NCBI GenBank assembly: GCA_021805735.1
Contig: JAJZEE010000037.1
Coordinates: 1-33,161 of the forward strand
From: Bacillota bacterium
GTDB taxonomy: Bacteria; Bacillota; Bacilli; Alicyclobacillales; SLC66
Length of the DNA: 33,161 nt
Reading direction: 5' to 3'
Below the pieces are notes generated by a model. The model saw only the letters and a program-made list of their open reading frames with translations, was not told the origin of the DNA and searched no databases. Positions within the stretch are counted from its first letter, which is position 1; the number at the start of each line of letters is the position of its first letter. Shown one piece after another: positions 5,717 to 30,730 of this stretch. The position numbers and the translations under genes are program-made.

Positions 5717-6148
5717 TCATAGACCAACGTGGAGAGCATGGCGTACAAGCGAGTCCATGGTTTCTGGAATGCCCTCCGTCATGGACTGGCCGATCTGAGG
5801 GCCGAGTGTGTCCGCCGCGGAACCGTCGATTTCGACGCGGTGCGTCACCTTCGTCTTCCCAGATGGGGCTTCGCCCAAGGTGTGAATAAAGCGAATGACG
5901 ACCCCTGCTCCCGGTATTTCAGTCTCGTCTGAAAACCCTTTGCCAGGGGTGGCGCTGAGGATGCGGAAACGGAGAGCGTCCTGCCCCATGGGGGTGATTG
6001 TTCCCGTTGAGCCGGCAGCAAATGGTCCGTCCAATTCTATGGCAGAGATGCCGGCATCCCAGACCGGCCAAGTGGTCACATCGCTGTACAGCTTCCAGAT
6101 CGCCGCTGAGGACGCTGTCGTTTCAACCGAATGCTCAAAACTCCACAT
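5717..6148 (-). CDS. SRPBCC (START-like) domain protein
   Basis: This 143-residue protein matches the polyketide-cyclase/dehydrase SRPBCC pattern. It begins 'WSFEHSVETTASSAAIWKLY', then 'SDVTTWPVWDAGI', then the 'F..GS.G...P' and 'TKVTHRVEIDG' strands, and ends with a long C-terminal helix. Such proteins bind hydrophobic small molecules in a deep pocket. No catalytic residues can be named. The ATG at 6148 is preceded by AAGGAGG and a good promoter. It is the first gene of an operon with the MarR regulator, a common pairing in which SRPBCC and MarR respond to the same compound. Confidence 0.85.
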   Translation of the reverse strand: MWSFEHSVETTASSAAIWKLYSDVTTWPVWDAGISAIELDGPFAAGSTGTITPMGQDALRFRILSATPGKGFSDETEIPGAGVVIRFIHTLGEAPSGKTKVTHRVEIDGSAADTLGPQIGQSMTEGIPETMDSLVRHALHVGL

Positions 6149-6177
6149 ATCGATGCCTCCTTAATATACTCGCACAT

Positions 6178-6207
6178 ATTATATATGCGCATACTATATA
6201 GAGTCAA
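6178..6207 (-). promoter_or_regulatory. Promoter of the SRPBCC-marR operon with embedded palindrome
   Basis: On the minus strand TTGACT (6207-6202) is followed after 18 bases by a consensus TATAAT (6183-6178). The spacer contains a perfect 10-base palindrome, TATGCGCATA (6184-6193). It also contains AT-rich flanking halves related to each other (TATAGTATGCGCATAT and TATACTCGCACATAT). This is where a MarR dimer would block RNA polymerase. The -35 lies within 15 bases of the glycerate kinase stop. Confidence 0.7.
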
Positions 6208-6214
6208 GCACATG

Positions 6215-7336
6215 TCAGATGAACAGCCGCAGGATATTTTCCGCCGCGTCCGTAACCAGAGCGTACGCGTTGGCCATGGCGAACTCCTCGCTGACCGGCC
6301 CCGGACAAATGCTGAACAGACTGTCCACGCCCAGTTCATACAACAGTTCCCGTCCGACGCCGAGAGCGCCGGACAGACACACCACGGTCTTGCCGCACGC
6401 CTTCGCACGCCGGGCGACTCCGGCCACCGCTTTCCCGTACGCGGTTTGCGCGTCTGTCCTGCCCTCCCCGGTGATGACGAGATCGGCGTCGCGCACCGCC
6501 TCTTCAAAATGAAACAGGTCGAGCATCACCGTGATGCCGGAATCCAAACTGGCGCCGCAGAAAGCTGCCAACGCCGCGCCAACGCCCCCCGCCGCGCCCC
6601 CGCCCGGCAACTCAGACACGTCGATCCCGAGGGTGCGGTGAATCTGCCGCGCGAGGTGTCTCAAATTGCCGTCCAACAGTTCAACCATTTCGAGAGTCGC
6701 GCCCTTTTGCGGGCCATACACGGCGGTCGCTCCTTGGCGACCGTAGAGCGGATTGGAGACATCGCACATGACCCGAATGGACACTTCCTTTATTCTCGGA
6801 TGGAGACCCTGTGTATCCAGTTGGACTATCTCCCCGACATGAATCCCGCCAAACAGCGCCTGCTCCCCGTCCGCGTCAAGCGCACGCAACCCCAACGCCT
6901 GAGCCATCCCGACGCCGCCGTCATTGGTCGCGCTACCTCCGATTCCCACGATGATGGTCTCGACCTCGGGACGGTCCAGCGCGCAGCGAATCACTTCCCC
7001 CAACCCATACGAAGTTGTGTAGAGGGGGTTGCGTTCCTCCGCGGTCAATAGAGTCAGTCCGGAGCAACGCGCCATCTCAATAATCGCAGTGTGCCCGGCC
7101 AGTCCATACTCCGCAGAGATCTTCCTCCCCAGCGGGTCTGTTACCTCGCACTCCATCCGCTCGCCATGCAGCGGTCCGAGGATCGCATCAAGAACGCCTT
7201 CGCCGCCATCGGCGATGGGAATTCCCCTCACGGTCACGTTACCGCAACGCGCTGCGGCTTCCTGAACGGCCCGAATGAAGTCGCCGGACGAGAGGCTGCC
7301 TTTATAGGAATCTGCGGCGACAAGAACATTCAGCAT
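6215..7336 (-). CDS. glxK: Glycerate 2-kinase (GarK/GlxK family)
   Basis: This 373-residue protein, of normal family length, phosphorylates D-glycerate with ATP, giving 2-phosphoglycerate. The family's landmarks are present: ADSYKGSLSS near the N-terminus, IPIADGGEGVLDA (~40-52), VGIGGSATNDGGVGMAQALG (~150-170), GGGAAGGVGAALAAFCGA (~265-283) and VITGEGRTDAQTAYGKAVAG (~300-320). Its ATG overlaps the glcD stop by seven bases, so it is the last gene of the glc operon. In glycolate breakdown it takes the glycerate formed from glyoxylate into glycolysis; carboligase and tartronate-semialdehyde reductase are not in the window. Confidence 0.93.
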   Translation of the reverse strand: MLNVLVAADSYKGSLSSGDFIRAVQEAAARCGNVTVRGIPIADGGEGVLDAILGPLHGERMECEVTDPLGRKISAEYGLAGHTAIIEMARCSGLTLLTAEERNPLYTTSYGLGEVIRCALDRPEVETIIVGIGGSATNDGGVGMAQALGLRALDADGEQALFGGIHVGEIVQLDTQGLHPRIKEVSIRVMCDVSNPLYGRQGATAVYGPQKGATLEMVELLDGNLRHLARQIHRTLGIDVSELPGGGAAGGVGAALAAFCGASLDSGITVMLDLFHFEEAVRDADLVITGEGRTDAQTAYGKAVAGVARRAKACGKTVVCLSGALGVGRELLYELGVDSLFSICPGPVSEEFAMANAYALVTDAAENILRLFI

Positions 7337-8814
7337 GACTCATGCGCCTCCTCCCGGAAAATGTTCCTGCCAGTTGGATTCATATGCTGCGCGGCAGACT
7401 TCCGCGCGTCGCGAAACTCTGCGCACCGCGCGGGATGTGGGATGAGCTTGCCCGAATTGCACAGATCGCGCGGGTTGAACACCTCGCGCAACCGCCGCTG
7501 CGCCTTCAAGTCCGTTGCCGAAAACATATACGCCATCTGCCCGATCTTCTCCAAACCGACGCCGTGTTCGCCGGTGATGCTGCCGCCGGCATCCACGCAC
7601 TGTTCCAGGATGCGTTCCCCGAGCTTCATGGCCTGCTCGCGTTGCCCCGGAATTCGCGCATCATAGCAGATGAGTGGATGGAGATTCCCGTCGCCCGCAT
7701 GGAAAACGTTCGCCACCCGCAATCCATGCTCGCGACTCAGCTCCGCGATGCGCCGCAGGACCTCCGTCAGCTTCGTGCGGGGAATCACGCCATCCTGAAC
7801 GAGGTAGTCCGGAGAAATCCGTCCGATCGCCGGAAACGCCATTTTGCGGCTGCTCCACCACAGGGCGCGCTCCGCATCGTCCTTCGCAATCTGCACCCTG
7901 CGCACGTGGTTTTGCTCACAGATTTCCATCACCCGCCGCGCCGTGTCTTCGACTCCGGCCGACAGACCGTCCACTTCGACCAGCAACGCCGCCTCGATGT
8001 CCAGCGGATAACCCACATGATAATGACTCTTGTCGACCGCCTGCATCATGAGTTGGTCCATCATCTCCACCGCTGCCGGAATGATCCCCGAGGAAATGAT
8101 GTCCGACACCGTTCTGGACGCGTCGTCCACATGATCAAAATAGGCCAGCACCGTCTTCACGGCTTCCGGACGCTTCAGGATCTTCACCGTGATCTCGGTG
8201 GCGATGCCAAGCGTTCCCTCCGACCCAACGATCACCCCGAGTACATCATAACCGACCGGATCGCCGAATGGGTGTCCGAAATCTGCGATCTCCCCGGACG
8301 GCAGCACCACCTTGGCCGCCACGACGTGGTTGGTGGTGACGCCGTATTTGAGACAATGCGACCCTCCCGCATTCTCCGCCAGGTTGCCGCCAATCGTGCA
8401 CACCGATTGACTGGAGGGATCGGGCGCATAATAGAATCCGCGTTCCGCGATTGTTTTCGTGAGCACAAGGTTCACAAAACCGGGCTGCACGACCGCGCGC
8501 TGATTGTCAAAATCCACGGCGAGCAACTTGTCCATCCTGGCGAGGCTGATGACCAAGTCGTTGTTTCGCGGCGTCGCCCCGCCGCTCAGGCCCGTACCCG
8601 CACCCCTGGGCAAAAACGGAATCGACTCCTGGTTGCACAGTTTCACGACCCTCGCCACCTGATCCGTCGATTCGGGAAATACGACGGCGCCAGGCAGCGA
8701 TTTTTCGGCGACATACGCGTCGCAATCGTAGGCCTTCACCTGATTGGCTTCAGACAGCACATTCTGCGCCGAGACAATCTCGCGCAATGCCGCAATGATG
8801 CGCTCCGCAAGCAT
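7330..8814 (-). CDS. glcD: Glycolate oxidase, FAD-binding subunit GlcD
   Basis: This 494-residue FAD-linked oxidase has a PCMH-type FAD domain (LPRGAGTGLSGGA ~68-80, GGNLAENAGGSHCLKYG ~145-161, GSEGTLGI ~200) and the C-terminal oxidase domain with HAGDGNLHP, ITGEHGVG and the final 'FNPRDLCNSGKLIP'. It oxidises glycolate (or a related 2-hydroxy acid such as D-lactate) to the 2-oxo acid, passing electrons to the GlcF Fe-S subunit. I chose the ATG at 8814 over the upstream frame to 8967 because GAGGAGG lies nine bases upstream and the extra residues overlap glcF. The start lies one base after the glcF stop (TGAtATG). Confidence 0.93.
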   Translation of the reverse strand: MLAERIIAALREIVSAQNVLSEANQVKAYDCDAYVAEKSLPGAVVFPESTDQVARVVKLCNQESIPFLPRGAGTGLSGGATPRNNDLVISLARMDKLLAVDFDNQRAVVQPGFVNLVLTKTIAERGFYYAPDPSSQSVCTIGGNLAENAGGSHCLKYGVTTNHVVAAKVVLPSGEIADFGHPFGDPVGYDVLGVIVGSEGTLGIATEITVKILKRPEAVKTVLAYFDHVDDASRTVSDIISSGIIPAAVEMMDQLMMQAVDKSHYHVGYPLDIEAALLVEVDGLSAGVEDTARRVMEICEQNHVRRVQIAKDDAERALWWSSRKMAFPAIGRISPDYLVQDGVIPRTKLTEVLRRIAELSREHGLRVANVFHAGDGNLHPLICYDARIPGQREQAMKLGERILEQCVDAGGSITGEHGVGLEKIGQMAYMFSATDLKAQRRLREVFNPRDLCNSGKLIPHPARCAEFRDARKSAAQHMNPTGRNIFREEAHESC

Positions 8815-8815
8815 A

Positions 8816-10141
8816 TCAACGCGCCTCCTCTGCATAGGCCATATCAAGCAGTTCGACGGTGTGCAGCACGTCGACGTCCTGGTGGCGGCGGTGCGCGCCA
8901 ACCCTGATCTGCAGCATGCACCCTGGATTCCCCATGGCGATGGCGTTGACACCCTCGGGCACGTCATCCATCTTCCGTTCGAGAAGCTGCCCGGCCATCT
9001 GCGGGTGTATCAGATTGTAGATCCCGGCGCTGCCGCAACACCGCTCCGAATCCTGCATCTCCACGACTTTCAGCCCAGGTATCGAACGCAAAATACGGCG
9101 CGGTTGATCGCGGATGTTCTGCGCATGGCAGAGATGGCAGGCATCGTGGTACGTGATCGTGCGCTCCACCCGGCCCGTCGGAGCTTCGAACCCCACTTCG
9201 ACGAGCAATTCGCTGATATCGCGCACCCGTCCGGAAAACTCTTCCGCTTTGCTGTGATACTCCGGGTCATCGCGAAACAGTTCCGGGTATTCCTTCAACG
9301 CCGCGCCGCAACCCGCCGCGTTGATGATCACGTACTCGGCTCCCGTCGCCAGGAACGCGTCGATGTTTTGACGCGCCAGGTCGCGCGCCTGTTGACGGTC
9401 GCCCGCATGAATCTGCAAGGCGCCGCAACACAGTTGCTGCTTGGGCACCACGACCTCCAGACCATTGCGGACCGCCACACGCGCTGTCGCTTCATTGATA
9501 GAAGCAAACAATACATCCATCACGCAGCCCGTGAACAGCGCCGCAGTGGCTTTGCGCACACCTTGGGCGGCCATGCGCGGCGGCAGGGTCTGCAGCGCCG
9601 GGCGCGCCTTGACGGCAGGAAGCACCGCTTCCATCTCCCGCAAGTGTGGCGGCAGGATGCGCAACAGGCCAAGTCTGCGTACAAGCCATCGCAGCCCTGC
9701 CCTCTGGTAAACTTTCAATAGCCCGCCGATCGCATACAGCCGTACTGGATACGGGAAAATATGCCGCAAGACGAGTTTCTCCAGCCCTCGGTTGATTCCG
9801 CGCGGCAATTGCTCCGCATGTACTTGTCCGCGCGCTTCTTCAATCAACGCGCCCACCTGGACGCCGGAAGGACACACTGTCTCGCAAGCCCGACAGTCCA
9901 AACAGGTGAATACGGGATCAATCACGGCGGCATCAAGCGACAGGCGGCCCTCTGCGGCTTCCTTGATGAGATAGACTCGTCCTCGCGGCGACTGGTTTTC
10001 ATCAAACAACTCCTGGTATGTCGGACAAACCTCCAGGCAAAACCCGCAATGGACGCAAACTGAATACTTGTCGGCGTCAGGTGTATCGGCAATCATAGAG
10101 GACAGGCTTGGCACTGGCGTTTCAGCTGCCATGTACGCCAT
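8816..10141 (-). CDS. glcF: Glycolate oxidase, iron-sulfur subunit GlcF
   Basis: This protein of about 441 residues has two 4Fe-4S ferredoxin motifs near the N-terminus (CVHCGFCLEVCP and CLDCRACETVCP). Two CCG-type cysteine-rich domains follow (KQQLCCGALQ...AAGCGAALKEY and DACHLCH...ERCCGSAGIYN), the layout of GlcF/LutA/GlpC electron carriers. It transfers electrons from GlcD to the quinone pool at the membrane face. I prefer the ATG at 10141 (GGGAGGG seven bases upstream, one base after the glcE stop); an in-frame ATG at 10159 would lie inside glcE. Confidence 0.92.
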   Translation of the reverse strand: MAYMAAETPVPSLSSMIADTPDADKYSVCVHCGFCLEVCPTYQELFDENQSPRGRVYLIKEAAEGRLSLDAAVIDPVFTCLDCRACETVCPSGVQVGALIEEARGQVHAEQLPRGINRGLEKLVLRHIFPYPVRLYAIGGLLKVYQRAGLRWLVRRLGLLRILPPHLREMEAVLPAVKARPALQTLPPRMAAQGVRKATAALFTGCVMDVLFASINEATARVAVRNGLEVVVPKQQLCCGALQIHAGDRQQARDLARQNIDAFLATGAEYVIINAAGCGAALKEYPELFRDDPEYHSKAEEFSGRVRDISELLVEVGFEAPTGRVERTITYHDACHLCHAQNIRDQPRRILRSIPGLKVVEMQDSERCCGSAGIYNLIHPQMAGQLLERKMDDVPEGVNAIAMGNPGCMLQIRVGAHRRHQDVDVLHTVELLDMAYAEEAR

Positions 10142-16099: not shown

Positions 16100-18394
16100 T
16101 CAGTACCCCATCCCAGGCTGCATGAGCTGATGTTGCCCCTGCGCCAGCGCGTCGACGCCATACACGACAGATACGGCAGCCTGGGCCACCGTCAGGCCGG
16201 AAGACGCGTCAAAGTTCCCATTGATCAGAGAAAGCAGACCCAGTGAGTAGCAGATCGCGGCTGCCGCATACTCCGACTGGGGAATGGAAGCCGCGTCTTT
16301 CGCGGGCAAGCGAAACGCCTGTGGATGTGCCAGGATCGCGCCATAACCCAGCGCCCGCGCCAGTACATCAGCCGCAAATCCACGAGACGCGGGGCGATTT
16401 GGCTGAAACAACGGACCCGCGGGGAGAATGCCGCTCTCATAGGCAGACAGGATCGCCGAGAATGCCGGCGAGCGCGAAGACACGTCAGCCATGGAACCCT
16501 GAATTTTACTGGAGGAGTAAATCAAAGGCTGTGGACCGCCCTGACCGATATTGAGCGCTCCAGTCACAAGCTGAATAAATTGCGAACGAGTCATGACGCG
16601 GTTGGGATGTACGTCGCCGGCAGCGCTGACCGTGAGCAGACCATGGTTGACAAGGAGTCGAATCTCAGGCGCCGCAGACGAATTGCCGATGTCCCTGATC
16701 ACCCCGGTATATACGGATGGAGTCAGCCCACCGAGCATCTTCCCGGTCAACGCGTCCACCATACCGCCGTTCGCATACTGACCCACGGGCGCGTAGACAA
16801 GTACGACATGAGCGGGCGGGTACTGTTTCGGCTTTTGCCCCGGAGGTTGTCCCGGTGTATTGTTTTGCGGCGGATTTGTCTGCAGATACATCAGTTGCAA
16901 CGGCTCCGCCTGCAGCCACGCCCGCTTGGCGGCAGTCAGGGAGATCGCCTTGGATGGCGACGGAAACGGTCCGGTTTCACCCTGCTGAAGTGGAGAATAG
17001 AAATTGCTGACCTGGCCAGTGATGGCATTGGCGGAGATATTGCCCGCGTTCGCCCCATCCGGAAGTCCGTTGATCAGGAATTGCAAGGAGTAACTCTGCA
17101 CCACACTGGCAGGAAGTTTCTTGAAGGCAAAGGCAGTGACCGAGATAGCGCCTGTATCTTGCGGAAACAGGCGTTCCAGAAACTGCTTGACCACGGCTGT
17201 CATGTGCGCCTGAGAATACCTTGCCTTGCCGGTGTACGGTCCGTTGCCCATGTAGGAGTTTTGCAAGAATCCGTATGTCGCGTCCACTTGCGCGTTGTAT
17301 TGTGACGTTTTAGCCTTGTCAGTCCACGTAAAGCTCCAGTTTACGTCGCCGTTGGGGAGAGTTCGGTTTTGGATTTGAGACGTCAAGCTGAAACCTGCCG
17401 GAATGTGTTCCACACGGGTGGCATAGGCGAGGGACTGCGCCTGTGTCCAATTGACTTTGTGCGTCAAAAATGGCGCCTGCGGACCACCGGGAACCAGCGG
17501 CGCAGGTTGTTTTGCGGGAGTGAGTGGATGCGCGACTCCATTGGCGTCGATGACTTTCCCTGTCTGCGCGTCAATGACCGGGACTCCGACGCCGTTTCCT
17601 TGATTGATGAACTGTCCGCCGACCCAAAACTGCGGATACGGCGCCATTGGCAGTGAGTAGGCGAGCACAAGCGCTGGACCACTGGACGCCTGCCAGTTGT
17701 TTTGATAGGACAGTTCCAGCGGCAAACCGTCCGCGTAAGCCGTGTTGGCCTGCGTGAGCGACAGCGCTGGGTGAGCGGACGGGAATTTCACGGTTGACCA
17801 TGTCTCGTTGACGCTTGTGAGATGCCCGTTTTGGTCGATGGTAACGGCAATACCGTTGAATGGCGCCTGCACTCCGCCGACCATGCGCACGAAGTTGAAA
17901 TTGTACTGGACCGCCTGTGTGAGCGGCCCCATCTGCGGTGACAGGGGTTGAATCTGGACCTGGGAGTACAGATTGGGGTACAGTTTCTTGACCCATGCTA
18001 TGGCCTTGGCTTTTGCCTGGCTCTCTGACACAGGCAACGGGTACACGAACGTATTTTGCAGCGATGAACGGTTGTAGTTGAGAATCGCCCCCGTCGTCGC
18101 GTCCACCGTAACATTGATGAACTGTTGCTGCTGTGTAGGGGTCGTGAAGCCATACGTGAGCCCATACGAGACCGGGTTACCCTGTCCTCCGGAATCGTAC
18201 GACTCCTGGGTTATCTTGTAATAGGATGGAATGTTGAACGTGTGCACGGCAATTTGCTCTGCCTGTGTGAGTGTCACCGTTGCTCGCGCAGCAGCACCGT
18301 TCGGCGATGCGGCCAACGTTGCCGTCGCCGTCGCCGGCGCCATCGCCAGCAGCAGCGAGGCAGCCATGGGCCACGCATGTTTCCTTTGAATCAT
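16100..18394 (-). CDS. Exported PepSY/YcdB-repeat protein with SLH-like C-terminus
   Basis: A large exported protein of 764 residues. A signal peptide (MIQRKHAWPMAASLLLAMAP..., cleavage near ATLAAS) is followed by tandem YcdB/PepSY-type units. Each has a 'lt..qA...a' helix and a 'v.vDA.TG.i..y' strand (VDATTGAILNYN ~105, VIDAQTGKVID ~280, QVDATYGFLQN ~375, ISANAITGQVSNFY ~455, GGMVDALTGKMLGG ~555). The last ~180 residues resemble S-layer-homology repeats (HPNRVMTRSQFIQLVTGALN, 'RPASRGFAADVLARALGYGA', 'GLTVAQAAVSVVYGVDALA'). It probably sits in the cell envelope; PepSY modules are thought to regulate proteases or bind ligands. I chose the ATG at 18394 because GGAGGAGG lies eight bases upstream; the ATG at 18412 overlaps that site. 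Confidence 0.8.
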   Translation of the reverse strand: MIQRKHAWPMAASLLLAMAPATATATLAASPNGAAARATVTLTQAEQIAVHTFNIPSYYKITQESYDSGGQGNPVSYGLTYGFTTPTQQQQFINVTVDATTGAILNYNRSSLQNTFVYPLPVSESQAKAKAIAWVKKLYPNLYSQVQIQPLSPQMGPLTQAVQYNFNFVRMVGGVQAPFNGIAVTIDQNGHLTSVNETWSTVKFPSAHPALSLTQANTAYADGLPLELSYQNNWQASSGPALVLAYSLPMAPYPQFWVGGQFINQGNGVGVPVIDAQTGKVIDANGVAHPLTPAKQPAPLVPGGPQAPFLTHKVNWTQAQSLAYATRVEHIPAGFSLTSQIQNRTLPNGDVNWSFTWTDKAKTSQYNAQVDATYGFLQNSYMGNGPYTGKARYSQAHMTAVVKQFLERLFPQDTGAISVTAFAFKKLPASVVQSYSLQFLINGLPDGANAGNISANAITGQVSNFYSPLQQGETGPFPSPSKAISLTAAKRAWLQAEPLQLMYLQTNPPQNNTPGQPPGQKPKQYPPAHVVLVYAPVGQYANGGMVDALTGKMLGGLTPSVYTGVIRDIGNSSAAPEIRLLVNHGLLTVSAAGDVHPNRVMTRSQFIQLVTGALNIGQGGPQPLIYSSSKIQGSMADVSSRSPAFSAILSAYESGILPAGPLFQPNRPASRGFAADVLARALGYGAILAHPQAFRLPAKDAASIPQSEYAAAAICYSLGLLSLINGNFDASSGLTVAQAAVSVVYGVDALAQGQHQLMQPGMGY

Positions 18395-18533
18395 GAGCGA
18401 TGCCTCCTCCATGAGTTTCTCCGTTTTGAGAAACAGTCGCCATATAGACGAATCAGCGTGAAAAAGGTTTCATCGCGAGAAGGTTTGTTTCAAGCTCAGG
18501 GGCAATCAGTGCATCTCTCCATACACAAGCGGA

Positions 18534-18621: not shown

Positions 18622-18924
18622 CTAAGATCCTACAAACGCACGGACTTGGGGCTCGGGCCGGAAGCCAACGAGCTGATTGGCCACCTTCCCCTTCTTGAAC
18701 AGGAGCATAGTGGGCAATCCCATGACGCCATACGGCTGCGCAATGCCAGGATGTTTGTCCGTGTCCACATATAAGAACTGCACTCCGGTTGTCTCTTTTT
18801 CAACCTTTTCAACGACTGGACCCAGCCGCCTGCAATACGGTCACCAGTCAGCTGTAAAAAATGCCACGACCGAACCGCCGGCAGACACGATTTGTTTAAA
18901 TTCCGATTCATTCACGACCTTCAT
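18622..18924 (-). CDS. trxA: Thioredoxin with in-frame TGA at the active site (candidate selenoprotein)
   Basis: From the ATG at 18924 (GGGG eight bases upstream) to TAG at 18622-18624 the frame encodes 100 residues with one internal stop, TGA at 18841-18843. Around it the protein reads FFTADW-[TGA]-PYCRRLGP. This is the thioredoxin active site W-C-x-x-C with the TGA exactly at the first, nucleophilic cysteine (codon 28). The rest is a normal thioredoxin: 'FLYVDTDKHPGIAQPYGVMG', cis-Pro71 in GLPTMLLF, KKGK turn, 'GFRPEPQVRAFVG' helix. No frameshift or other stop occurs. Read with selenocysteine (UxxC) it would be a selenoprotein thioredoxin reducing disulfides or peroxides. The alternative is a recent Cys-to-stop mutation. 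Ordinary gene callers would miss it. Confidence 0.8.
18811..18830 (-). promoter_or_regulatory. Candidate bacterial SECIS hairpin
   Basis: Ten bases after the UGA (18841-18843) the mRNA can form an 8-bp stem: 5' arm GGCGGCUG (18830-18823), tetraloop GGUC (18822-18819), 3' arm CAGUCGUU (18818-18811), with three G-U pairs. The GGUC loop begins 18 nt after the UGA. In the E. coli fdhF SECIS, as I remember it, a GGUC apical loop also begins 18 nt after the UGA and is the SelB contact. The bulged U of fdhF is not evident here. The pairing is seen in sequence; the function is inferred. Confidence 0.5.
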
Positions 18925-19003
18925 TACACGATCCCCTTTCAAGACAAGTATGGAACTTTCCCTGTTCCAGTATATCACTTTGGGGGAATGCACTGCCCTT
19001 GCG

Positions 19004-19041: not shown

Positions 19042-19824
19042 CTATTTGACCACGACCGTCATCTGGACATAGCTCATATCCTTCATCTGCACATGGTAGG
19101 TTCCCGGTTTATTGAACGTGTACGTCCAGGATTGACCCATGTGGACCAATGGCGATGTCGTTACGCCGCGAACCACAAAGTGGTCGGTTCCCATTCCATC
19201 AAACAAAAACTGCAAGCGTTGTCCTGTTTGCAGATGCACGATGCCGGGATTGAATTTCCCGTTTTTAACGACCACTTCCATTGCGCTGCTCGCCTGCATC
19301 ATGGCAGGGGTCGTGATGACCCAGCCGACAGGAGCGCCGAGGTTGCCGTGCGTGAGCGTATGACCCGCAATTTTCGGTTTTAGGGGATTCGCGAGAAGCT
19401 TGCCGGTGGGGGCCACATTCCAATATTCACTGTGCGCCGTAATCGCCGGATTCGTGAATGAAACGACAACCGGTTTCTGGAATTTCCCGATCAACGTTCC
19501 TGTCTTCGTGTTCGTCACCTTGAACGCAAAGTCGATCAGCGCATTCTCTCCTTTGGGAGCCCTCATGGCAAACTGTTGAACCGGACCCTCAAGCAATTCA
19601 AATTGAACTTGCGAAGAAAATGCGCCTGCCGGCACATGAACGACAAGCTCCCCGTATTTGAGAGTCGCCGCATGGCCTGTACGGATTATTGTTGTCGCCG
19701 CCACTTTCGGAAACCCAAGATGTTGAAAATCAGGCGCGCTTGCAGCAAATACAGACCCCACAGTCATAGCGAACGTTGCCGCTGACACCACCGCCGTTGC
19801 AGCGAATCTCTGCATCTTATTCAT
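19042..19824 (-). CDS. Exported cupredoxin-fold protein lacking the copper-ligand Cys
   Basis: This 260-residue protein has a signal peptide (RFAATAVVSAATFAMTVGSV, cleavage after FAASA). A beta-rich middle follows (residues ~40-165; LKYGELVVHVPAGAF, 'PVVVSFTNPAITAHSEYW'). The C-terminal ~90 residues have a cupredoxin outline ('EVVVKNGKFNPGIVHLQTGQ', 'TDHFVVRG', 'KPGTYHVQMKDMSYVQMTVV'). In blue-copper proteins the last segment is 'PGtY...C...H..M'; here 'YHVQMKDMSYVQM' has His and Met but no Cys, so a type 1 copper site is unlikely and a Met/His site is possible. AAGGAGGT lies eight bases before the ATG at 19824. It is upstream of, and co-oriented with, the thioredoxin. Confidence 0.75.
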   Translation of the reverse strand: MNKMQRFAATAVVSAATFAMTVGSVFAASAPDFQHLGFPKVAATTIIRTGHAATLKYGELVVHVPAGAFSSQVQFELLEGPVQQFAMRAPKGENALIDFAFKVTNTKTGTLIGKFQKPVVVSFTNPAITAHSEYWNVAPTGKLLANPLKPKIAGHTLTHGNLGAPVGWVITTPAMMQASSAMEVVVKNGKFNPGIVHLQTGQRLQFLFDGMGTDHFVVRGVTTSPLVHMGQSWTYTFNKPGTYHVQMKDMSYVQMTVVVK

Positions 19825-20267: not shown

Positions 20268-20580
20268 ATGAAGAACATGGTTAGCAACGGCATCTCAGAT
20301 TCAGGAGTTCCCTGGGTTGCGTCGATACGGCGCGTCCACTAGTCCAACCAGACAGGTCGCCTATTGTCGTATATCGAGCGCGGCACAAAGGCCCGATTGG
20401 CAGAATCAGCGTCGCATGAAGGGTCGGCTCACGCGGTTTGGCTTCGGGTGGTTTGGACATGATGCATGTGCCGATCTCTTTCGCCCAGCTCGGCATTGCA
20501 ATCCGAACACATGTTCGATATACTGATCTTGAGACCCTTTCTCACAAGCATCCCGATCCGAAACAAGCTCGATGAAGCCC
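20268..20580 (+). pseudogene. Decayed IS607-family TnpA (serine recombinase)
   Basis: The frame through 20317-20526 contains 'RQVAYCRISSAAQRPDWQNQ RR', matching the catalytic start of IS607 serine recombinases ('..iaYaRVSs.dQ..DLe.Q'), with the nucleophilic Ser in RISS. It jumps directly to 'RLTRFGFGWF', which in intact TnpA comes ~60 residues later, so the centre is deleted. A further frameshift moves the end ('SLSPSSALQSEHMFDILI', compare 'sLSPeqEMVqDLl.I') to another frame. There is no usable start codon. The remnant leads straight into tnpB, the usual IS607 gene order. Confidence 0.7.
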
Positions 20581-20598
20581 CGAGGGGAGATGCGGCGA

Positions 20599-21951
20599 AT
20601 GGAACTGGCGCACAAGATCCAGCTTCGTCCGACCGCTCCGCAGGAGGCGTATTTTCGTCAGGCGGCCGGATGCGCCAGATTCACATGGAATTGGGCGGTG
20701 GCGCATTGGACAGAGGACTTTGAATCGGGTCATGCGCCTACATGGTCGCAATTGAAGAAGCGGTTCAACGCGATCAAGTATGAAGCCTTTCCATGGATGA
20801 GAGAGGTGCATCGGGACGCCCATGCGCAACCCTTCGCCAACCTCGGCAAAACGGTCAAGCAGTTCTTCTCGGAGGTTAAGGCGGGCAAGAACGTGCACAA
20901 GCCTCAGTTCAAGAAGAAAGGCCAGTGCCTGGATTCGTTCTATGTGGCCAATGACAAGTTTGCCGTGAAGGGAACACGCATCCAGTTACCCAAAATCGGT
21001 TGGGTGGACATGACGGAATCGCTGCGGTTCACGGGGAAGATTCTGAGTGCCACGGTGTCGCGGACAGCCGATCGGTGGTTTGTATCGATTCAGGTGGATG
21101 TACCGAAGGGAGCGGCGAAGAGAAAGCGGATTTCGCATCATGTGGAAGGTGTGGATCTCGGCGTGAAGACGGCCGTGGTTCTCTCTACGGGCGAAGGGAT
21201 CGACTCACCCAAGCCGCTGAAGAAAGCGCTGCGCCGCCTGAACATTCGGCAGCGACGACTGAGCAGGAAGCTGGAAGCGGCGAAACGGGAAGCAAAGATA
21301 GAAGGCAAGATCCCCAAAGGCATGAAACTGTCCGTCTCGAACAACCGGCGACAAGATGCGGCGGCCTTGGCAAGACTCCACGCACGCATCGCGAATATCC
21401 GTTCCGACTTTACGCACAAACTCACCACTCGACTGGTGCGCGAAAACCAAGCCATCGGCATCGAGGATCTGTGCGTGCAGGGGATGGTCAAGAATCACCG
21501 ATTGGCCCTGGCCGTATCGGATATCGGGTTCGGCGAGATACGCAGGCAACTGGAGTACAAATCCGTTCTATACGGCACGAAGGTCGTGGTGGCCGATCGC
21601 TTTTTCCCATCCTCCAAACGGTGCTCATGCTGTGGCTATATCCTGCCGGAGCTTTCGTTGTCCGTTCGAGAGTGGACCTGCCCGCAGTGCGGCGCGTATC
21701 ATGATCGGGACGTGAATGCAGCGCAAAATCTCAAGAGGCTCGCAACCTGTTCGATTCACTTTGTGAATGAACAACCTGCGCTACCTGTGGCGAATCAGGC
21801 GGCAACGTCTGATACAGGCGTCGGTGTCAGAGCAAGACCGACAAATGGCGGGAAAGTCACGCCTGTCAGATACGAAGCGGGCCTTCAAGGGGCTTCGGGG
21901 CAGGAACAGAATGCTGCGCACTTTTGCGCACATTTTGGACAGCAGAGGTGA
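20599..21951 (+). CDS. tnpB: TnpB, RNA-guided nuclease of an IS607-type element
   Basis: This protein of about 450 residues has an N-terminal helix-turn-helix-like region (IQLRPTAPQEAYFRQAAGCA, 'RFTWNWAVAHW'). Its RuvC nuclease has three acidic residues in place: Asp ~186 in GVDLGVKTAVV, Glu ~289 in AIGIEDLCVQGM, Asp ~371 in YHDRDVNAAQN. A four-Cys zinc finger (CSCCG...CPQCG, ~342-364) interrupts RuvC. The frame is intact and the usual TnpB tail (TPVRYEAG...AHFCAHFG) is present. TnpB proteins are guided by an omega-RNA usually made from the tnpB 3' end and the element's right end, so that RNA should lie near 21750-21980. The ATG at 20599 has GGGGAG nine bases upstream; ATGs at 20572 and 20590 are alternatives. 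Confidence 0.9.
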   Translation: MELAHKIQLRPTAPQEAYFRQAAGCARFTWNWAVAHWTEDFESGHAPTWSQLKKRFNAIKYEAFPWMREVHRDAHAQPFANLGKTVKQFFSEVKAGKNVHKPQFKKKGQCLDSFYVANDKFAVKGTRIQLPKIGWVDMTESLRFTGKILSATVSRTADRWFVSIQVDVPKGAAKRKRISHHVEGVDLGVKTAVVLSTGEGIDSPKPLKKALRRLNIRQRRLSRKLEAAKREAKIEGKIPKGMKLSVSNNRRQDAAALARLHARIANIRSDFTHKLTTRLVRENQAIGIEDLCVQGMVKNHRLALAVSDIGFGEIRRQLEYKSVLYGTKVVVADRFFPSSKRCSCCGYILPELSLSVREWTCPQCGAYHDRDVNAAQNLKRLATCSIHFVNEQPALPVANQAATSDTGVGVRARPTNGGKVTPVRYEAGLQGASGQEQNAAHFCAHFGQQR

Positions 21952-28498: not shown

Positions 28499-29440
28499 CT
28501 ATAAGTAATCGAGCTTCCGCTTGAACCACCAGTTTGTCGCCAACGTGGCGAGTAAAATAAGCAGGAACAACAGTACTGTAGCAGCAGCGCCATATCCGAC
28601 TTGTCCATAAGAGAAAATAAATTGGTATATCAATAACACAATGGTGGTCGTTGAGTTGAGTGGACCACCTGTACCCTGAGACATAATGAAAGACTGATCA
28701 AACATTTGCAGTGTGCCAACAATTCCCATCACCACGATGAAGAAGGTTGATGGGCTCAGCAGGGGAACCGTGATTCGCGAGAAGCTTCTCCACCGACCCG
28801 CTCCGTCGATGGCCGCCGCTTCGTACATCTCCGCAGGAATTGCCTGCAGCCCCGCCAGGAATACGACCATAAAATATCCCGATGTCGTCCAGATATTCAA
28901 AAGCATGATGGACGACAAGGCAAACGATGGATTGCCCAGCCAGTCCGGTCCGACAATGCCGAAGACAGATAGAAACCCGTTGAGAAGACCAAATTTGTTG
29001 TAGATCCACATGAAGATGATCGATATCACAGCCGATGAACTCACCGCCGGAAAGAAGAACGCCAAACGGAAAAAACCGCGCGCCGGAAGATTTTGATTGA
29101 GAATCGCCGCCAATAATAGCGCCACCACGGTTTGCGTGGGCACCACAACTAACGCAAATACAACGGAATTACGAACCGAGATCCAGAACAGGGGCATCTG
29201 AAAGAGTTGTACAAAGTTTTGCCAGCCGACAAAATGCATGTGATTCAGCAGCGACCATGAAAAAAAACTGAGATACAGCGAGTACAGCGCCGGACCCAAA
29301 GTAAACAGAAAGAGAAGCAAGACTGAGGGCAGGGTAAACATATACCCCACCCCTAACTCACGACGGGCCCGACGGCGAAATGCGTTACCCTTAGGGAACG
29401 CCGGGAGTGAAGAACTCCCGGCGCCTTCTATGCTAGCCAT
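28499..29440 (-). CDS. Carbohydrate ABC transporter permease (MalF-like)
   Basis: This 313-residue protein begins with a cytoplasmic stretch (~30 residues, RRRARRE) and then six transmembrane helices (first at ~35-55). The EAA loop is 'MYEAAAIDGAGRWRSFSRIT VPLLSP'. It pairs with the MalG-like permease downstream and the sugar-binding protein upstream as a CUT1-family importer for an oligosaccharide. The start at 29440 has GGGAG upstream, which overlaps the 3' end of the binding-protein gene. Confidence 0.9.
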   Translation of the reverse strand: MASIEGAGSSSLPAFPKGNAFRRRARRELGVGYMFTLPSVLLLFLFTLGPALYSLYLSFFSWSLLNHMHFVGWQNFVQLFQMPLFWISVRNSVVFALVVVPTQTVVALLLAAILNQNLPARGFFRLAFFFPAVSSSAVISIIFMWIYNKFGLLNGFLSVFGIVGPDWLGNPSFALSSIMLLNIWTTSGYFMVVFLAGLQAIPAEMYEAAAIDGAGRWRSFSRITVPLLSPSTFFIVVMGIVGTLQMFDQSFIMSQGTGGPLNSTTTIVLLIYQFIFSYGQVGYGAAATVLLFLLILLATLATNWWFKRKLDYL

Positions 29441-29446
29441 TCGAAG

Positions 29447-30730
29447 TCAGCTCCCTGAATGCAATATGGCCATACCGCCTTGCTGCATATTGGCCAAAGC
29501 CTGGGCGGGCGTCTCTTTGCCCATGATGGCCAGCGTGGTCTCATTGGTCATCGTGGTGCTTGACAATTGAGAGAACCCGGCCGGAAAAGTCCACGGAACT
29601 GAGACGGACAGGTCTGCGAGCAACCCTTTCAGGACCGGATGTTGCTTGTAGTACGGCAAAGCCAGCAGGGATTTGCGCGAGGGCAATGCGAGCCCCAGAT
29701 TCATCCATTTGGTCATGCCTTGCCGACTTGTCAGATAGCGAATCAGATCCCAGGAAGCTTGTGGATTTGTAGAATCCCTGGTAATCCCATAGGCGACGGG
29801 GAAGGTGAGCGTTTCCGCATTCTTCGGACCCTTAGGCATCGGTACGACGGCAAAGGGCGTCTTGGGATACGTCTGTTCCAGGAACGGCACCAGCCAGTTT
29901 CCGGACAACGTCATCGCGGCGCGCTGCATGCCAAACGCCTGCCCTCCCCAGGGAGCTCCGACGGTTCCAGGCAGAGCCGCCGATCCGTTCCGATAGAGAT
30001 TCACGAAGAAGCTGAATCCTTGCAGCGCCGCTTTGGTGTTGAGCGTCATCTTGGTCATCGCGGGGTTCATCACGCTTCCGCCCGCCTCATAGACAAATTC
30101 TGCCCAGCGCGGCTCCTGCGCGGAATTGATCAAGCCATAGCGATGCACTTTAACATCCGTCAACCGATGCGCATCGGCCGCCAGTTGGGCCCATGTGGTC
30201 GGAGGAGATTTGATCCCCGCCTGGCGGAACATCACCGGGTTATAGAAGAGTGAAAGCGGAGACTGATCCTTGGGAATCCCGTACACGCTTCCATGATAGC
30301 GAAACAGATTCAGGGCGCCAGGGAAGAAATCCTGCAGCGGAAAGTGCGACGCCTTAATGTATTTGTTTAGCGGCAACAAATCCCCATTTTTCATGAAAGA
30401 ACTGGATTGCCCACCGTTGTTCACGTAGATGACGTCAGGAGCGTCTCCCGCCACAAAACGGGTCTTCAAAATCGCCTCATAGTTGCCGCTGATCGGGCGA
30501 TAGTTGACGTGGATCCATGGGTACGCCTTTTCGAAGTACGTGAGTTCCTTAGCCATCAATGTCGCTTCCACTGGCGATGATGTCCATCCGCCAAGCGTGA
30601 TGGTGACCTGAGCATGAGTTGCCTTCGCGGCAGCCTGTTCAGGCAAGCCAAAGCCGACCAGAGCGGTTCCGAGCACGACACAGGCTCCGCCAGCGACCAC
30701 AGTTGTCCACTTTTTATTGACCTGCTTCAT
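29447..30730 (-). CDS. Extracellular sugar-binding protein of the ABC importer
   Basis: This 427-residue protein has a signal peptide (KKWTTVVAGGACVVLGTALV...) and a family 1 solute-binding fold: 'VTITLGGWTSSPVEATLMAK', 'FVAGDAPDVIYVNNGG' (the 'gd.PDv......'), 'SVYGIPKDQSPLSLFYN' and 'SSTTMTNETTLAIMGKETPA QALANMQ' near the end. No clear lipobox Cys is placed after the signal peptide, so how it is held at the cell surface is uncertain. I chose the ATG at 30730 (GGAGGT nine bases upstream); an earlier ATG at 30895 would put an unrelated Cys-rich stretch before the signal peptide. Substrate is probably an oligosaccharide, given the debranching-type enzyme upstream. Confidence 0.9.
   Translation of the reverse strand: MKQVNKKWTTVVAGGACVVLGTALVGFGLPEQAAAKATHAQVTITLGGWTSSPVEATLMAKELTYFEKAYPWIHVNYRPISGNYEAILKTRFVAGDAPDVIYVNNGGQSSSFMKNGDLLPLNKYIKASHFPLQDFFPGALNLFRYHGSVYGIPKDQSPLSLFYNPVMFRQAGIKSPPTTWAQLAADAHRLTDVKVHRYGLINSAQEPRWAEFVYEAGGSVMNPAMTKMTLNTKAALQGFSFFVNLYRNGSAALPGTVGAPWGGQAFGMQRAAMTLSGNWLVPFLEQTYPKTPFAVVPMPKGPKNAETLTFPVAYGITRDSTNPQASWDLIRYLTSRQGMTKWMNLGLALPSRKSLLALPYYKQHPVLKGLLADLSVSVPWTFPAGFSQLSSTTMTNETTLAIMGKETPAQALANMQQGGMAILHSGS

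Follow-up and report, generated by a model that had tools for sequence, protein, structure and literature searches.

Positions 18622 to 18924 of the window (the whole stretch of DNA analysed here, 33,161 nucleotides) raise the question of whether a thioredoxin gene interrupted by a TGA at its active site is a working selenoprotein gene. From the sequence comparisons below we consider it very probable that this gene encodes a selenocysteine (Sec, U)-containing thioredoxin. The original prediction of a candidate UxxC selenoprotein is supported by the Sec gene set of the host, the conserved TGA, purifying selection and a SECIS-like hairpin that the prediction had not looked for.

Frame, fold and conservation

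The gene lies on the minus strand (18622..18924), running from an ATG at 18922-18924 to a TAG at 18622-18624, with a Shine-Dalgarno-like AGGGG (within AAAGGGG; 18933..18937, minus strand) 8 nt 5′ of the ATG; similar AGGGG or GGGG sequences are found in relatives. Its 100-residue translation is MKVVNESEFKQIVSAGGSVVAFFTADW-U-PYCRRLGPVVEKVEKETTGVQFLYVDTDKHPGIAQPYGVMGLPTMLLFKKGKVANQLVGFRPEPQVRAFVGS, then TAG. The single in-frame stop is a TGA, and the remaining two frames of the strand have several stops each. This TGA is codon 28 (18841..18843, minus strand), read here as selenocysteine; it is the first position of U-P-Y-C in the context F-F-T-A-D-W-U-P-Y-C-R, and so stands where CxxC has its first Cys, as had been predicted. 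The protein matches Pfam Thioredoxin PF00085 with 77.7 bits (cut-off 23.5) over residues 2-98, spanning both sides of the TGA; this match and the renewed reading of the frame bear out the earlier description of a complete 100-codon thioredoxin frame with one TGA only. With TIGR01068 (the NCBIfam TrxA equivalog) it scores 80.3 bits, below the cut-off of 96.8, and W-U-P-Y-C stands where the canonical active site is W-C-G-P-C. The AlphaFold2 model has the thioredoxin fold (mean pLDDT 92.7; TM-score ~0.9 to many solved thioredoxins, e.g., 3hhv and 2trx), with the active site at residues 28-31, before helix 2, and P71 of the cis-Pro loop (G-L-P-T) conserved. In G021, a genome of the order from another family than the window genome, one thioredoxin matches PDB 1quw, the Bacillus (Alicyclobacillus) acidocaldarius thioredoxin, without a difference over 105 residues; this places the window in the order of Alicyclobacillus.

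The comparison set consisted of the window genome (G000) and 60 relatives (61 in all), covering 59 genomes of the order plus two from elsewhere in the class. Ten of the 61, from several genera and two families, have a thioredoxin with TGA at codon 28; the nine besides the window genome are G001, G002, G008, G006, G007, G014, G010, G038 and G051. The family of the window genome contributes two congeners (98% and 96% identical) together with G006, G007, G008, G010 and G014, while G038 and G051 belong to the second family. Protein identity of these orthologues to the window protein goes down to ~38-43%, and the Sec motif is always U-P-x-C in the ten genomes (UPYC, UPHC, UPGC, UPSC, UPAC, UPMC). 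The G000 and G002 genes are separated by 18 synonymous and 3 non-synonymous codon differences, and dN/dS is ~0.03-0.04 within the genus; judged by such changes, purifying selection acts strongly on the thioredoxin frame on both sides of the TGA. Homologues with disabling mutations had been named as evidence that would count against a working gene, and none was found: the two congeneric species differ from the window gene mostly at synonymous sites, and all nine other genomes keep the TGA and an intact frame.

These data bear on two other explanations. The gene could be a pseudogene made by a chance nonsense mutation at the catalytic Cys codon, for which one TGC/TGT to TGA change suffices, with an intact Cys thioredoxin in the genome as back-up; against it stand the TGA at this codon in ten genomes that span several genera and two families, the strong purifying selection flanking the TGA on both sides, and the complete thioredoxin profile 3′ of it. 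The conserved TGA refutes this reading, which we hold to be extremely improbable. A sequencing or assembly error at the TGA base might be suspected in a draft like the window genome (3.76 Mb in 170 contigs, 97% complete), yet nine genomes assembled independently of it, and differing from it at many nearby sites, have the TGA too; these assemblies refute this reading, whose probability is vanishingly small.

The exact pattern GAYTGGTGACC... matched the window genome alone in ~400 genomes of the phylum, a strict pattern by which absence is not proven. The order yielded no Cys version of the orthologous UPxC proteins, and those Cys homologues that exist are more distant: F-x-A-D-W-C-P-x-C proteins are present in other phyla and other Bacilli, according to a scan whose Cys pattern by design finds Cys forms only. 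Two marks of a selenoprotein are present, an in-frame UGA at a redox-active site that is Cys in homologues, and retention of the TGA in orthologues under purifying selection.

The gene is flanked upstream by an exported protein of unknown role (19042..19824, minus strand), kept in the congeneric G001 and not beyond the genus, and downstream by a large exported protein (16100..18412, minus strand), likewise not conserved beyond the genus, so that no operon-based function can be read for the thioredoxin. Other features of the window include an ORF at 20572-21951 (plus strand) whose product resembles TnpB-type transposon proteins and contains CxxC...CxxC towards its end, and a very stable hairpin of -17.1 kcal/mol at ~29384-29449 (minus strand) directly after the TGA of a substrate-binding protein gene, which probably terminates transcription or serves in mRNA processing between transporter genes. 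Long open frames at 6131-7051 and 7342-8907 (both plus strand), antisense to genes 6215-7336 and 7330-8967, are probably mere shadow frames of GC-rich coding DNA.

Selenocysteine genes of the host

The original prediction had called for a search for selA, selB, selD and a selC tRNA, and all are present in the window genome: selA (592 bits), selB (388 bits, full length with positions 1-577 of 581), two selD (401 and 356 bits) and a tRNA-Sec(UCA) (61 bits; ARAGORN also says tRNA-SeC). Absence of the Sec machinery, named beforehand as an outcome that would tell against a selenoprotein, was thus not what we found; the host encodes SelA, SelB, SelD and tRNA-Sec, the set that marks a bacterial selenoprotein producer. 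Each selD gene (G000:C112:41758-42681 and G000:C6:17888-18805) itself has one in-frame TGA, at the catalytic position. selA adjoins selD on C112; a short way upstream of selA, on its strand, is the gene for a Cys-type TrxA. selA scored above cut-off in all ten TGA-thioredoxin genomes vs. 30 of the 61 overall; a random draw would give this with a probability of ~3 in 10,000, a figure that ignores the kinship of the genomes, the counts not being independent because the genomes are related.

The frame is open whichever residue UGA encodes, as it would be if UGA had been reassigned to Trp, Gly or Cys in this organism, without selenocysteine. TGA, however, ends 14 of the 23 main genes of the window and is its commonest gene-ending stop, which excludes a code change; tRNA-Sec, SelA, SelB and SelD are encoded, and internal TGAs fall at catalytic positions of known selenoprotein families. 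We give reassignment hardly any credence. Pseudogene, sequencing error and code reassignment were all rejected on the conserved TGA, selection, the Sec genes and TGA stop usage.

At least four other genes of the window genome have an in-frame TGA, namely both selD and two peroxiredoxins. The latter have it at the peroxidatic Cys: L162 (G000:C79:307-693, minus strand) reads ...KDDTPG-U-TKEA... (TPGU) and L163 (G000:C150:34717-35091, plus strand) reads ...LDWTPV-U-GAQM... (TPVU). A hairpin meeting the bSECIS model was found after the UGA of neither. Among the matches listed, nine of the ten Sec-thioredoxin genomes have a peroxiredoxin with one in-frame TGA, its position having been checked only in the sequences read; the tenth, G010, is 73% complete and had no matches listed. 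The formate dehydrogenase alpha subunit of the window genome (G000:C132:33471-35477) is the Cys form (RYCQSP) despite the Sec machinery. Given this Cys form and the TGA in thioredoxin and peroxiredoxins, the Sec machinery seems to serve mainly the latter two, and not formate dehydrogenase, among the genes examined.

One relative, G041, lacks selA. Its G041:C47 locus is syntenic with G035:C1:1008000-1021000 (L169 vs. L170) at ~90-94% identity, with ~1.57 kb holding selA replaced by ~43 bases. The G041 peroxiredoxin L166 (G041:C46:439300-441000) is 98.7% identical to that of G035 and has TGA at the catalytic position; a TGA peroxiredoxin without selA is possibly a selenoprotein fossil, or a sign that Sec use was lost very recently. 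Members of the order with selA, and at least one that lost it, make a natural comparison for the keeping and losing of Sec use.

The hairpin 3′ of the UGA

The bSECIS model specifies a loop of 3-9 nt with G in the first two positions, a stem of 4-16 bp, a UGA-to-loop distance of 16-37 nt and an energy of at most -7.5 kcal/mol (PMC13188914). At 18811..18830 (minus strand) the window gene has a SECIS-like hairpin, GGCGGCUG-[GGUC]-CAGUCGUU, with loop GGUC, a stem of 8 bp, 18 nt from UGA to apical loop and -9.0 kcal/mol. An equally good hairpin follows 1.1% of the 1117 TGA triplets of the window, and just one of the 14 gene-ending TGAs there is followed by a strong hairpin, which was taken as a terminator.

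All ten TGA thioredoxins conform to the bSECIS loop, stem and spacing rules, and they have a GGU apical loop in common. In four of the ten the hairpin alone reaches -7.0 to -7.1 kcal/mol, narrowly missing the -7.5 threshold, and is embedded in a more stable fold. G008 (60% protein identity) has the same hairpin at the same position as the window gene, while six others (G006, G007, G014, G010, G038, G051) have GAGACC-[GGU]-GGUCUC or variants 23 nt 3′ of the UGA. No covariation could be counted across clades, because the hairpin registers differ (18 vs. 23 nt). The selD of the window genome has AGGUCC-[GGC]-GGACCU, 17 nt from its UGA.

Codon usage under the hairpin is constrained. G000 and G008 agree in every codon from +6 to +10, whereas codons for other shared residues differ in 33 of 52 cases (one-sided p 0.01); among the six others, 6/6 use the same P-V-V codons, whereas one codon is kept at 0 of 26 other shared residues (p 0.002), the codon range under the hairpin having been picked after the hairpin was seen. 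Such conservation of codons within the hairpin speaks further against a pseudogene. The hairpin is more stable than in synonymous recodings (combined p 0.0018; one sequence per genus, seven genera); the window gene taken alone is modestly better than its recodings (p 0.11). Twenty Cys thioredoxins gave no hairpin signal after the Cys codon, with one of the 20 below p 0.05. Long RNA stretches around the UGA folded no better than shuffles did, and the short hairpin alone, judged against the bSECIS model and synonymous recodings, was informative.

Proposed function and known relatives

We infer the following mechanism from what is established for thioredoxins and for Sec insertion in bacteria, combined with the sequence features above. 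SelA would turn Ser-tRNA-Sec into Sec-tRNA with selenophosphate from SelD; SelB, bound to the hairpin 18 nt 3′ of the UGA, would bring the tRNA-Sec, whose UCA anticodon would decode the UGA of codon 28. The selenol of Sec28 would then be the attacking nucleophile on target disulfides and Cys31 the resolving thiol, as in ordinary thioredoxins. The likeliest clients would be the cell's own pair of Sec peroxiredoxins, with the Sec thioredoxin acting beside the housekeeping Cys TrxA next to selA-selD; that it reduces them is our guess, from co-occurrence only.

Because a separate Cys TrxA is kept beside selA-selD, basic thioredoxin work does not depend on the Sec form. This arrangement would suit a selenium-dependent switch instead of a constitutive enzyme, in which Sec is inserted at UGA only under ample selenium, and translation otherwise mostly stops there or continues with Cys. 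Such a switch is speculation, compatible with the main explanation, and we think it very unlikely. The UPxC proteins of the Alicyclobacillus order might be a separate, Sec-obligate subfamily whose dedicated task is to recycle the Sec peroxiredoxins present in those cells, a proposal that we offer tentatively and with more doubt than belief. If true, it would describe a peroxide defence chain with selenium in both the peroxidase and its reductant.

Confirmation of the Sec thioredoxin would add a conserved clade for the order of Alicyclobacillus, for which the literature searched yielded no selenoprotein reports, and would make a two-step selenium-based peroxide pathway directly testable. The case also illustrates that reading the bare sequence can bring to light a genuine selenoprotein whose frame standard gene callers would truncate at the stop codon.

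Sec thioredoxins are already a known kind, as the original prediction had stated; less expected here are a UPxC motif, a host from this order and a pairing with Sec-containing peroxiredoxins. Seven UxxC thioredoxins have been listed, including those of Geobacter, Anaeromyxobacter, Carboxydothermus and Treponema (PMC1794560, Table 3), and thioredoxin is counted among characterised selenoproteins (PMC13188914, where Kim et al., 2015 is cited on Sec thioredoxin). The window protein resembles those of Geobacter, Anaeromyxobacter, Carboxydothermus hydrogenoformans and Treponema denticola in its thioredoxin fold and length of ~100 residues, in having Sec for the first Cys of CxxC, and in the SECIS after the UGA and the Sec genes of the host; it may differ in its U-P-x-C motif and differs in belonging to a clade conserved in the Alicyclobacillus order, the published proteins being compared by description only. 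With the TrxA of its own genome (TIGR01068, WCGPC; C112:45882-46181) it shares the fold, the cis-Pro (G-L-P-T in the window protein), the resolving Cys and the size, but the two are 36% identical and TrxA has Cys, not Sec, and CGPC, not UPYC; given this motif, the window protein is no simple Cys-to-Sec copy of the housekeeping TrxA. Closest in motif are the F-x-A-D-W-C-P-x-C thioredoxins of Streptomyces, Bacillus, Lactobacillus relatives and others (31-46% identity), which have the same pre-motif and Pro after the first Cys, but have Cys at the Sec position, mostly as WCPPC or WCPDC, and belong to other phyla or other orders of Bacilli.
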